Shown here: in pieces, positions 12,374 to 18,895 of the stretch
How the letters are laid out: every line of letters starts with the position of its first letter
Position numbering within the stretch: the first letter of the stretch is position 1
Translations under genes and position numbers: made by a program
Notes under the pieces: generated by a model
Told to the model about the DNA's origin: nothing
Databases searched by the model: none
What the model saw: the letters and a program-made list of their open reading frames with translations, nothing else
Source: Salinirussus salinus
GTDB taxonomy: Archaea > Halobacteriota > Halobacteria > Halobacteriales > Haloarculaceae
DNA: 64,000 bases
Assembly (NCBI RefSeq): GCF_009831455.1
Contig: NZ_WOWO01000002.1
Span: forward strand, 1,178,001-1,242,000
Direction of reading: 5' to 3'

Positions 12374-13591
<1,218 letters not shown>

Positions 13592-13823: not shown

Positions 13824-15581
13824 ATGAACACGGTCGAAGAATGGAAAGAGGAGAAACACCCGCTGGACGTCATCGAGGACGTCGAGACCTACGCCGAAGA
13901 GGGGATGTCCTTCGACGAGATCGAGGAGTACGCCGGCGACGGCGAGTGGGAGCGGCTCAAGTGGGCCGGGATGTACGCCCACGGCCGCCAGCGGGGCTAC
14001 TTCATGCTCAGGACGAAGGTGCCCGGCGGCTACCTCACGCCCGAGCAGGCCGAAGTCATCGGTGAAGTGGCCGAGGAGTACGCCACCGCCCCGCCCGAGC
14101 ACGGCGGCGAGGAACAGAACGAGATCTGGGGCGACGCCTTCCTGGACATCACGACCCGCCAGGACGTCCAGATGCACTGGATCGAGGTCGAGGACATGCC
14201 CGAGGTCTGGGACCGGTACGACGAGGTCGGGCTGACGACGGTCCAGGGCTGTGGCGACTCCGCGCGCAACGTGCTCGGCTGTCCGGCCGCGGGCCTCTCC
14301 GAGCACGAGGCCTTCGACGCCCAGCCCGTCGTGGACGCCGTGTCGGACTTCTTCACGAAAAACAGGGAGTACGCCAACCTCCCGCGGAAGTTCAAGCTGA
14401 CCGTCACGGGCTGTACCCACGACTGCGGGCAGTCCCAGATCAACGACGTCGGGATGACCCCCGCGAAGAAGGAACTCGGCGGCGTCTCCGCGAGCAGCGC
14501 GAGCGGAGGCTCGTCGGAGGGTAGCTCCGACGGCGAGTGGCAGTACGGCTTCCACGTCCGGGTCGGCGGCGGGCTCTCGGACGGGCCGCGGATGGCCACG
14601 CCGATGGACGTCTTCGTCCCGCCGGCCGACGCCGTGGAGTTCTGTCGGGCCGTCGCCCAGACGTTCAAGGAACTGGGCGACCGCAATAACCGCGGCGTCT
14701 GCCGGATGCGGTATCTCGTCCAGCAGATGGGCACGGAGGCCTTCGAGGAGGCCGTCCGCGACCGGTGTGGCGTCGACCTCCCGTCCCGGGGTGTGGACCT
14801 CACCGAGGGGTACACCGGCGACCACGTCGGCGTCCACGACCAGCGCGAGGACGGCCTGAAGTACGTCGGCTTCAACGTCATCGCCGGCCGGATGGGCGGC
14901 GACGAGTTCGCCGCTGCGGCCCGCGCCGCAGAGAAGTACGGTACCGACGAGGCGTCGGTCCGTCTCGCGACCGACCAGAACTTCCTCGTCACTCACATCC
15001 CCGAGGAACGCGTCGGCGACCTGCTCGACGAGCCGTTCGCCCGGAAATACCGGCCCGACCCCGGCCCCTTCTCGCGGGGCGCGGTCGGCTGTACGGGTTC
15101 GGAGTTCTGCAACTACGGGATCATCGAGACGAAAAACCGCGTCCGGCGGTGGGCGAAGGCGCTCGACCGCCGGGTCGACACGCCCGAGGACCTCGACGTG
15201 GTGCGGATGCACATGTCCGGCTGCTCGGCCTCCTGTGCGCAACCGCAGATCGCGGACATCGGCTTCCGGGGCGAAACCGTACAGATCGACGACCCCGAAG
15301 GCACCACCAACGAGGAGGGGGACAATATCGTCGAGGGGATGGACTTCGGCCTCGGCGGCAGCCTCGGGACGGACAACGAGTTCCTCGACTGGGTAGAACA
15401 CGCCGTCCCCGCGGACGCCGTCATCCCGGCCATCGAGGAGCTGTTCGGTGCCTACACCGAGAACCGGGAGGAGGGCGAGCGATTCTACGCCTGGTGTCGC
15501 CGCGTCGGCAACGACCGCCTGCGGTCGGTGATGGAGCGGGCCGACGCCAACGTCTCCGGCGGGGTGGCACATGGGGACTGA
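13824..15581 (+). CDS. Siroheme/4Fe-4S sulfite or nitrite reductase (NirA/SirA type)
   Basis: 585 residues from ATG 13824, a two-repeat assimilatory reductase. Cluster/siroheme cysteines: C423 and C429 (CTGSEFC), C467 and C471 (CSASC). The anion pocket reads R63 (FMLRTK), R148 (DSARNVLG), K189 and K191 (LPRKFK). The second Lys is the sulfite-reductase state, while plant nitrite reductases have Asn there. Overall sequence (CTGSEFCNYGIIETKNR) is NirA-like, as in mycobacterial SirA. An 18-residue Ser/Gly insertion lies near residue 220. It overlaps the F420 dehydrogenase gene by 11 bases, so electrons probably come from F420H2. Six-electron reduction of sulfite is my preferred call, nitrite the alternative. 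Confidence 0.85.
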   Translation: MNTVEEWKEEKHPLDVIEDVETYAEEGMSFDEIEEYAGDGEWERLKWAGMYAHGRQRGYFMLRTKVPGGYLTPEQAEVIGEVAEEYATAPPEHGGEEQNEIWGDAFLDITTRQDVQMHWIEVEDMPEVWDRYDEVGLTTVQGCGDSARNVLGCPAAGLSEHEAFDAQPVVDAVSDFFTKNREYANLPRKFKLTVTGCTHDCGQSQINDVGMTPAKKELGGVSASSASGGSSEGSSDGEWQYGFHVRVGGGLSDGPRMATPMDVFVPPADAVEFCRAVAQTFKELGDRNNRGVCRMRYLVQQMGTEAFEEAVRDRCGVDLPSRGVDLTEGYTGDHVGVHDQREDGLKYVGFNVIAGRMGGDEFAAAARAAEKYGTDEASVRLATDQNFLVTHIPEERVGDLLDEPFARKYRPDPGPFSRGAVGCTGSEFCNYGIIETKNRVRRWAKALDRRVDTPEDLDVVRMHMSGCSASCAQPQIADIGFRGETVQIDDPEGTTNEEGDNIVEGMDFGLGGSLGTDNEFLDWVEHAVPADAVIPAIEELFGAYTENREEGERFYAWCRRVGNDRLRSVMERADANVSGGVAHGD

Positions 15582-17400
15582 CGAGCCCGAACTCGTCGAG
15601 GACGCCCCGGGAATGGGGCAACCCGGTGCGACCCGGAGCGAACAGGACGCGGCGGGGGCGGGCGCGGACTCGACGCCGGAGTCGGACCCGACGCCCGACC
15701 CGGGCCCGGCGACGGAGGCGGACCCGGCGGGGAGCGCGGACCGGCCCGGACGCGACGGACCGCTGCCGGGCGTCCCGGAGGCCGGCACGGACGGCCCCGG
15801 CGTCCCGCCCGTCTCCGGCGGGGACCGTACGAGCGACGCCACAGGGTCGATCCCGGCAAGCGGGGACCCCGGTGGCGAGAGGGCCACGAGCGGAGAGTGT
15901 AGCGACGACGGCTGTACCTGCGGCGCCGACGACCGTGGGAGCGCCGGCAACCACGTGGACGCCGGCGAGCGTGCCGGCAACCGCGGAAGCGCCGGCGGGC
16001 GCCCGGTGGCAGACGGTGCCGGCGCGGACGCCGCCGGCGGGACTCCAACGAATGTCACCGCGGACGGCGAGCTGACTGACCTGGAGTTCACCGAGCCACA
16101 GGAGGGGGTCAGCCAGGCGCTGCCCGGCGAGGAGCACGGCGACACCGACCGGCCGGACCGCCGGGTCGACGCGCCCGAGGGGGTCGACCTCGACACGCCG
16201 GGCTACGGCATCCGCGCGGAGATGAACGACATCGACGAGCCCGACGACAAGACGTGGTTCATGGAGCTGGATTCGGCCGTCATCGACGAGGGGCGGTGCA
16301 TCCAGTGTGGCACCTGCGTCGCGGCCTGTCCCTCGGACTCCATCGGGATCGGCGACGACGACCTGCCCGAACTCGTGAAGATGTGCACCGGCTGCTCGCT
16401 GTGCTGGGACTTCTGTCCCCGCGGCGGGCTCCGCTACGAGCGCCAGTGGAAGATCACCGGCGGCGAGGACAACGTCAAGGGCGCGGGTGACCCCATCACG
16501 GAGTTCTCCGCCCGGGTCGAGGACGACTGGCGCCACAGCTCCCAGGACGGCGGCGCCGTCACGGGTATCCTCATCCGGCTGATGGAGGCCGGAGCGATCG
16601 ACGGCGCGCTGATCGCCACCGAATCCGAAGACGATCCCTGGAAAGCAGAGGGCTTCATGGCCACTTCCCCCGAGGAGCTGGTCGAGAACACCGGCACCAT
16701 CTACAGCCAGACGATGGCGCTCGGCCATCTGGACTTCTCGCAGTGGGAGGACAAGTTCGAGAAACCCTGGGCGGAGGTGTCGCTGGCGCTCGTGGGCACT
16801 CCCTGCGAGATCGAGGGGATCCGCGCCCTGCAGGACTTCGAGTGGGAGTACGGCTCCCAGGAGGCGGGCGTGCGCGCCATCGACTACACGATCGCGCTGA
16901 TGTGTACGAAGAATTTCAACTACGAGCAGCTCGTCGGCGAGCAACTGGAGGAGAAACGCGGGATCGACATCGACGAGGTCGGCAAGATGGACGTCCTCCA
17001 CGGGAAGCTGATGGTCGACGACCGCGACGGCAACAGGATCCTCACCGAGGACATCGAGCACTTCCACGACGCCGCACTCAAGGGGTGTGACGAGTGCGCC
17101 GACTTCACCGGCTTCTGTGCCGACCTCACCGTCGGCTCCGTCGGGTCGAGCGAGGAGTACTCCTCGGTCATCGTCCGCACCGAGCGGGGACTGAAGGCGT
17201 GGGAGCTTGCCGAGCCAGTCCTCGACTACCACGACCTGGAGGACCGCTCGGCGGTCGGGAAGCTCCAGGGCTGGGACAAGAAGAAGGCCTTCGAGGCGCT
17301 GGAGCGGCCCTTCGACCCCGACGCCCCTCGCTTCATCGACTACACCGACCACGTCGACCACTACGGCGGCGAACCCACCCCCCACGAGGCCGACCACTGA
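15571..17400 (+). CDS. FrhB-type F420H2 dehydrogenase subunit with two 4Fe-4S clusters
   Basis: 609 residues. The first 220 are a Gly/Asp/Pro/Ala-rich, probably disordered extension with a small Cys motif ([10 protein letters not shown]). Then comes a two-cluster ferredoxin domain (C243, C246, C249, C253; C272, C275, C278, C282) and the FrhB/FdhB C-terminal domain ([35 protein letters not shown]). FrhB, FpoF and the N-half of methanogen Fsr share this arrangement: oxidise reduced coenzyme F420 with FAD and pass electrons to Fe-S clusters. The start at 15571 precedes the reductase stop; a later ATG near 16222 would remove the extension. Confidence 0.85.
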
Positions 17401-17485: not shown

Positions 17486-18895
17486 ATGGTACTCGACGAT
17501 CTCGGCTCCTCGCTCCGGAGCACTCTCGACGACCTCCGCGGCAAGTCGCGGATCTCCGAGGAGGACGTCGAGGACGTGGTCAGGGAGATCCAGCGCTCGC
17601 TGATCCAGGCCGACGTGGACATCGCGCTGGTCCAGGACCTCTCGGACAGCATCAAGAGCCGCGCGCTGGACGAGGAACCGCCCGCCGGCACCACGCCCCG
17701 TGACTGGGTGTTGCGGATCGTCTACGAGGAGCTGGTGGAGCTGGTCGGCGAGTCGACCGAGCTCCCCCTGGAGCAACAGACGGTCATGCTCGCCGGCCTC
17801 TACGGCTCGGGGAAGACCACCACCGCCGCCAAGATGGCGTGGTGGTTCTCGAAGAAGGGGCTCCGACCGGCGGTCATCCAGACCGACACCGACCGCCCGG
17901 GCGCCTACGACCAGGCGAAGCAGATGGCCGAGAACGCCGAGGTCGACTTCTACGGGGACCCCGACGAGGAGGACCCCGTCGCCATCGCCGAGGCGGGGAT
18001 GGAAGCCACGGGGGACGCCGACGTGCGCATCGTCGACACCGCCGGCCGCGACGGCCTCAACGAGGAACTGATCGCCCAGATCGAGCGGATCGACGCTGCA
18101 GTGAACCCCGACCGGAATCTGCTGGTGGTCGACGCCGCGATGGGCCAGTCCGCCAAGGAGCAGGCCCAGGAGTTCGAGGAGGCCATCGGCATCGACGGCG
18201 TCGCGATCACCAAGCTCGACGGGACCGCCAAGGGCGGGGGCGCGCTCGCGGCGGTCAACGAGACCGACTCCACCATCGCCTTCCTCGGGACCGGCGAGAC
18301 CGTCAAGGACATCGAGCGCTTCGAGCCCTCCGGGTTCATCTCCCGGCTGCTGGGGATGGGCGACCTCGAACAGCTCACCGAGCGCGTCGAGCGCGCCATG
18401 GAGGAGGCCCAGGAGGGCGAGGACGACTGGGAGCCCGAGGACATGCTCGAGGGCTCGTTCACCCTGAAGGACATGCGCAAGCAGATGCAGGCGATGAACA
18501 ACATGGGCCCGCTGGACCAGGTGATGGACATGATCCCCGGGCTGGGCGGCGGGATCAAGGACCAGCTCCCCGAGGACGCGATGGACGTCACCGCCGACCG
18601 GATGCGGGAGTTCGACGTCATCATGGACTCGATGACCGAGGACGAACTCGAGGACCCCCGCAGCATCGGCCAGAGCCGCGTCAGGCGGATCGCACGCGGG
18701 TCGGGCACCTCCGAGGACCGCGTCCGCGAGCTGCTCCAGCAACACAAGATGATGGAGCGCACCCTCAACCAGTTCCAGGGGATGGGCGACGCCGACATGG
18801 AGCGGATGATGCAGCAGATGCAGGGCGGCGGCGGTCCCGGTGGCCCCGGCGGCATGGGCGGCATGGGCGGTGGCGGCGGTCCCTTCGGCGACTGA
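17486..18895 (+). CDS. srp54: Signal recognition particle protein SRP54
   Basis: 469 residues from ATG 17486. N domain, then GTPase domain: [18 protein letters not shown] (G1), [29 protein letters not shown] (G3), [15 protein letters not shown] (G4) and a Met-rich M domain ([20 protein letters not shown], then [15 protein letters not shown] for 7S RNA binding) with a Gly/Met-rich tail. It binds signal sequences and delivers ribosomes to FtsY. Odd points: Tyr replaces the usual Gln in G1, and Asp replaces the aromatic residue before RPGAY. It has its own TATA-like box. Confidence 0.96.

Follow-up and report, generated by a model that had tools for sequence, protein, structure and literature searches.

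Two overlapping genes in the 64,000-nucleotide stretch of Salinirussus salinus DNA analysed here ('the window') very probably encode a two-subunit F420H2-dependent sulfite reductase (aFsr). Such a two-subunit haloarchaeal enzyme was predicted and given this name in an earlier report (Susanti & Mukhopadhyay 2012; PMC3448663), thus the idea is already published and not new, a point on which the initial annotation of this locus was silent. The pair is a member of this predicted family, for which no assay was found in the literature searched, and the present evidence makes the prediction much stronger and easily testable. We infer that the two proteins form a complex, in which the beta subunit would oxidise F420H2 at its FAD, single electrons would pass through the FrhB [4Fe-4S] cluster and two ferredoxin-type clusters of beta to alpha, and the siroheme-[4Fe-4S] centre of alpha would reduce sulfite to sulfide with six electrons. 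An enzyme run on F420H2 would, if the reading is true, extend what F420 is known to be used for in both bacteria and aerobic haloarchaea; assimilatory sulfite reductases of the architecture of alpha are known to run on NADPH or ferredoxin. A 2021 review of F420 lists Fsr for methanogens only. The features of the pair are as follows.

13824..15581, + strand: alpha subunit (aFsr-alpha), predicted NirA/SirA-type siroheme-[4Fe-4S] sulfite reductase, 585 aa (Pfam NIR_SIR and NIR_SIR_ferr; PDB plant NiR and M. tuberculosis SirA)
13974..13976, + strand: Y51, counterpart of Tyr69 in M. tuberculosis SirA, for which a Cys-Tyr bond has been reported (alignment to 1zj8; invariant in clades A, B, C1 and Rubrobacteraceae; Phe in NasD)
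14010..14012, + strand: R63, anion pocket (alignment)
14250..14252, + strand: C143, aligned with SirA Cys161 (alignment to 1zj8; clades A and C1 and Rubrobacteraceae have Cys here, NasD has Gly)
14265..14267, + strand: R148, anion pocket (alignment)
14388..14396, + strand: K189-F190-K191, with K191 at the position of plant NiR Asn226 (alignment)
15090..15236, + strand: siroheme-coupled [4Fe-4S] ligands C423, C429, C467 and C471, CX5CXnCX3C (invariant in alignment)
15571..17400, + strand: beta subunit (aFsr-beta), predicted F420H2 dehydrogenase of Fsr-N/FrhB type, 609 aa, its start overlapping the alpha stop by 11 bases (Pfam FrhB_FdhB_N/C and 4Fe-4S; Fsr 7np8, E 9e-37)
15571..16245, + strand: acidic N-terminal arm of beta, of low complexity and spanning roughly residues 1-225 (about 230 residues), clade A only (sequence and alignment; absent from the initial annotation)
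15898..15921, + strand: conserved motif of three cysteines, C110-x4-C115-x-C117, within the arm (carried by 65 of 77 clade-A betas but by neither clade B nor Rubrobacteraceae)
16276..16434, + strand: 2x[4Fe-4S] ferredoxin-like domain of beta (eight invariant Cys; Pfam Fer4 families)
16504..17214, + strand: FrhB core of beta with FAD, third [4Fe-4S] (C412, C445, C506, C509), HGK477-479 turn and GSVGS522-526 loop, the predicted F420 site (Pfam; alignments)

Both reading frames are real, start with ATG and overlap by exactly 11 bases, in agreement with the original description, and they are flanked by ftsY (12374-13591) and srp54 (ending at 18895). The assignment of alpha as a NirA/SirA-type reductase and of its partner as an FrhB-type protein was likewise confirmed: alpha scored 185.5 bits against NIR_SIR (cut-off 27) and 101.2 against NIR_SIR_ferr (cut-off 24), while beta exceeded the cut-off of FrhB_FdhB_N, FrhB_FdhB_C and 4Fe-4S dicluster families. 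The top PDB matches reached E-values of 2e-79 for alpha and 9e-37 (Fsr) for beta; given these values and the adjacency of the genes in 118 of 118 genomes, the observation is far beyond chance. In the window genome, alpha is the sole NIR_SIR protein and beta the sole FrhB_FdhB_C protein.

Joint conservation of the pair in other genomes, a check set beforehand, was borne out by a survey of 391 genomes of the class, in which the FrhB side was counted by PF04432. Close alpha orthologues (clade A; identity of at least about 73%) were found in 118 genomes and an FrhB_C protein in 126. In all 118 the FrhB gene lies downstream of alpha on the same strand, with 752 to 1398 bases between the end of alpha and the FrhB_C domain; no genome among the 391 harboured clade A without FrhB, and eight further genomes had FrhB without a clade-A alpha. 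Most of the other FrhB genes belong to a second FrhB-paired reductase (clade B; 41-48% identical to alpha), and in each clade-B locus examined the reductase adjoins FrhB. Among the named-genome loci, beta adjoins alpha in 74 of 75, the exception being truncated at a contig end. Since the neighbourhoods of clade A vary (ftsY in 39 of 80 loci, cofC plus cofG in eight of 80), the pair travels as a unit.

Phylogenies of the two subunits recovered the same groups. In the alpha tree, clade A and the actinobacterial set described below are sisters (99/98), clade B stands apart, and so do C1 (a third NirA/SirA clade) plus NasD. The best alpha tree places all FrhB-paired alphas in a clade of single origin; as its support is 78/53, such an origin is not claimed. 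In the beta tree, clade A itself is weak (64/54). These congruent clades are consistent with co-inheritance of alpha and beta.

The anion-pocket residues R63, R148, K189 and K191 and the cluster ligands C423, C429, C467 and C471 stand where the initial annotation had placed them, and are invariant across the 21 clade-A sequences aligned. K191 occupies the position of plant NiR Asn226 (Nii3 numbering). In 1zj8, the chain residues matching Y51 and C143 are Y80 and C172, which, given an 11-residue tag offset, are presumably Tyr69 and Cys161 of the Cys-Tyr bond; a bond of this kind in M. tuberculosis SirA is reported in the title of a cited paper. Haloarchaeal NasD, which adjoins NasA (itself above the model cut-off) and a transporter of NarK type, has N, F and G in place of K191, Y51 and C143, respectively, and plant NiR has the identical three. 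This comparison, made inside a single organism group, serves as an internal control and upholds the earlier view of K191 as the sulfite-reductase Lys where plant nitrite reductases have Asn. The alignment thus supports a putative sulfite-type pocket in alpha that would favour sulfite over nitrite. No NasA was seen among the conserved neighbours of clade A; in 31 genomes clade A occurs without NasD and in 19 without C1 or NasD, with the window genome included in both sets.

The clade termed C1 has no FrhB, carries the sulfite-type pocket residues and adjoins DUF7119 and DUF6360 (L104-L109, L143-L157); it is probably the usual haloarchaeal sulfite reductase. C1 was less frequent in the clade-A genomes (60 of 118) than in the others (208 of 273; Fisher P value 1.6e-6, uncorrected for phylogeny), and in one genome (G002) DUF7119, which usually neighbours C1, is found near the pair. 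This is no more than a hint that clade A replaces C1.

In beta, the cluster ligands of FrhB (Cys 104, 134, 192 and 195; PMC3591093) correspond in alignments to C412, C445, C506 and C509, which are kept in clades A, B and Rubrobacteraceae save for one alignment gap. Together with the eight ferredoxin-type Cys, these four FrhB-type Cys point to three [4Fe-4S] sites, one more than the two clusters proposed initially; residues 1-336 of MtFsr likewise hold three (PMC10229431). The FrhB regions near F420 have counterparts in beta, the GSVGS loop at 522-526 and the GK turn at 478-479, while the Lys75-Tyr76 FAD loop of FrhB reads I-Y in beta (GTIY), with the Lys replaced. The nearest sequences to beta are the F420H2-oxidising parts of Fsr (7np8) and F420-linked subunits of other complexes. 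The AlphaFold model of the beta core was excluded from geometry because its mean pLDDT is 59 (low confidence) and its ferredoxin part is unmodelled.

The Cys motif of the acidic arm, present in 65 of 77 distinct clade-A betas at 90-125 residues before the ferredoxin domain, accounts for 231 of the 257 cysteines in the 170-residue stretches examined. Its variants include CGCGSSCGC and CSPDTCTC, and the window sequence reads CSDDGCTC. By eye only, the motif resembles the CGCGSS motifs of A-type Fe-S carriers.

Genes for F420 synthesis were found near the pair and elsewhere. CofD is above cut-off in the window genome, and cofG exceeded the TIGR03550 cut-off in the two loci tested (among the eight clade-A loci with cofC plus cofG). 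In the named-genome scan, adjacent pairs were also found in Actinomycetota MAGs, mostly Rubrobacteraceae, with 50-53% identity for alpha and 44-55% for beta (in one, L219, beta is clipped by the contig end and gave 76% over a short stretch). The Rubrobacteraceae alphas also have K191, Y51 and C143. The gene order in two scanned loci (L221:1370-10378 and L218:558-11810) is cofD-cofC-cofE-(MFS)-cysH-alpha-beta-(113-aa ORF)-sat-cysC-tauE, where the cof genes, cysH, sat and cysC are above their NCBIfam cut-offs and the TauE-type exporter is above the Pfam cut-off, and the same ORFs recur across Rubrobacteraceae loci. The cluster unites F420 synthesis and sulfate assimilation around the pair, whose role in Rubrobacteraceae is very likely sulfate assimilation. 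No description of the cluster was found in the literature searched, and in the available portions of PMC3448663 and PMC9295563 Rubrobacter xylanophilus is only a legend name. The cluster renders a 14-year-old prediction directly testable. Binding of F420 by beta is supported by the FrhB-type Cys, the GSVGS loop, the GK turn, the nearby cof genes and the Rubrobacteraceae cluster.

Three other explanations were weighed. An F420H2-dependent nitrite reductase in vivo, like FsrII of ANME-2c, is unlikely, even though siroheme reductases reduce both anions, the best NCBIfam model for alpha is ferredoxin-nitrite reductase (below its cut-off), and ANME2c-FsrII-6D, an Fsr homolog, used F420H2 with nitrite and not with sulfite (PMC9295563). 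Against it stand the residues shared with SirA at the three positions where NasD beside NasA has N, F and G, the 31 clade-A genomes without NasD, and the adjoining sat, cysC and cysH in relatives. More improbable still is an FrhB-type subunit fed by ferredoxin or another donor in place of F420H2. FrhB-fold relatives do exist outside F420 enzymes, and the model of beta also matches one such protein, HCAR (5dqr), a ferredoxin-dependent enzyme; yet beta is nearest to F420-oxidising subunits and retains the F420 pocket motifs, and cof genes adjoin the pair in two separate lineages.

It is hardly credible that the genes are merely co-located and their proteins have no joint function. About half of the clade-A pairs do lie beside ftsY, a housekeeping neighbourhood; however, the adjacency holds in 118 of 118 genomes, across many genera and several unrelated neighbourhoods, extends to clade B and bacteria, and comes with overlapping reading frames. 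The F420-driven sulfite reductase originally proposed is supported, as a prediction, by the adjacency, the sulfite-type pocket, the F420-site motifs of FrhB, the cof genes and the Rubrobacteraceae cluster. Counterpoints are the match of the beta model to HCAR, the low confidence of that model, the replaced Lys of the FAD loop and the lack of ATP sulfurylase in the window genome.

Among the closest known systems is the aFsr predicted in 2012 (PMC3448663), which consists of an aSir-type reductase and a separate adjacent Fsr-N homolog in haloarchaea, with the same proposed reaction. The pair shows these traits, that is, a NirA/SirA reductase subunit and an FrhB protein with two N-terminal ferredoxin-type [4Fe-4S] sites. 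A rhodanese-fused clade, the Cys arm and the Rubrobacteraceae sulfate/F420 cluster are not described in that part of the 2012 text, where Rubrobacter and Thermobaculum are legend names only. Methanogen Fsr of group I (EC 1.8.98.3; MJ_0870; 7np8, 7npa) similarly links an F420H2 oxidase through two ferredoxin-type clusters and one FrhB cluster to a siroheme-[4Fe-4S] centre, but on one fused chain, and its reductase half is of a small Dsr-LP type into which a ferredoxin domain is inserted; alpha, in contrast, is a complete NirA/SirA protein of two repeats on its own ORF, has no extra Fe-S and is only weakly similar to Fsr-C. This contrast had been drawn correctly from the start; because of the split chains and the different reductase lineage, the pair would work like Fsr but is not Fsr. 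M. tuberculosis SirA/NirA (1zj8) shares with alpha its architecture, K-x-K motif and Tyr/Cys pair, yet is annotated as ferredoxin-dependent and is described without an FrhB partner. Haloarchaeal NasD and plant NiR share the NirA-family fold and siroheme-[4Fe-4S] but differ at the three diagnostic positions, and the conserved neighbours of clade A show no nitrate reductase linkage of the kind seen for NasD. FrhB-type F420 oxidoreductases resemble beta in the four cluster Cys and, close to F420, in the GSV loop and the GK turn.

The source of sulfite in haloarchaea is less clear than in Rubrobacteraceae. By profile search ATP sulfurylase (PF01747) is absent from the window genome, matches there to CysN and PF01507 are below cut-off or paralogous only, the CysD-like protein is divergent and below cut-off, and no sulfate-activation pathway is recognisable; sulfate assimilation was thus set aside as an unsupported role in this genome. 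As ATP sulfurylase occurs in only 11 of the 391 genomes of the class, its co-occurrence is uninformative as a class-wide test. Candidates are external sulfite, sulfonates, thiosulfate or a role in detoxification. A 324-aa CysD-like PP-loop protein (G000:C1:610173-610721; L163:1012-1986) comes from a genome in which neither Sat nor CysN exceeds the cut-off.

Clade B offers a further view of sulfur. Its reductase carries N-terminal rhodanese domains, seen as two stretches in the sole protein scanned (from L087), in which YCNTARR, in the second domain, is the only Cys loop and is active-site-like; the FrhB gene lies directly 3' of the reductase (L087:6960-10629; also L084-L096 and L099-L103). These domains point to sulfane sulfur. 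A haloarchaeal NirA-rhodanese fusion has been noted before, with the FrhB partner unmentioned in the accessible part of that source (PMC11237513). It is a doubtful idea that the complex handles sulfur beyond reducing free sulfite, in that the Cys motif of the mobile acidic arm in clade A (C-x4-C-x-C, often CGCGSSCGC) might accept nascent sulfide or carry a metal or Fe-S site, and the rhodanese of clade B might free sulfite from thiosulfate beside the siroheme. If this were true, F420-driven sulfur assimilation would be a module of two domains of life (haloarchaea and Actinomycetota).

Relatives of beta also stand alone in two loci (L097:7801-9084 and L098:7059-8342; 427 aa, 70% identity), with no adjoining reductase. 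In the former, a gene for an FAD_binding_2 flavoprotein lies beside the lone relative on the same strand, and perhaps encodes another F420-linked reductase.
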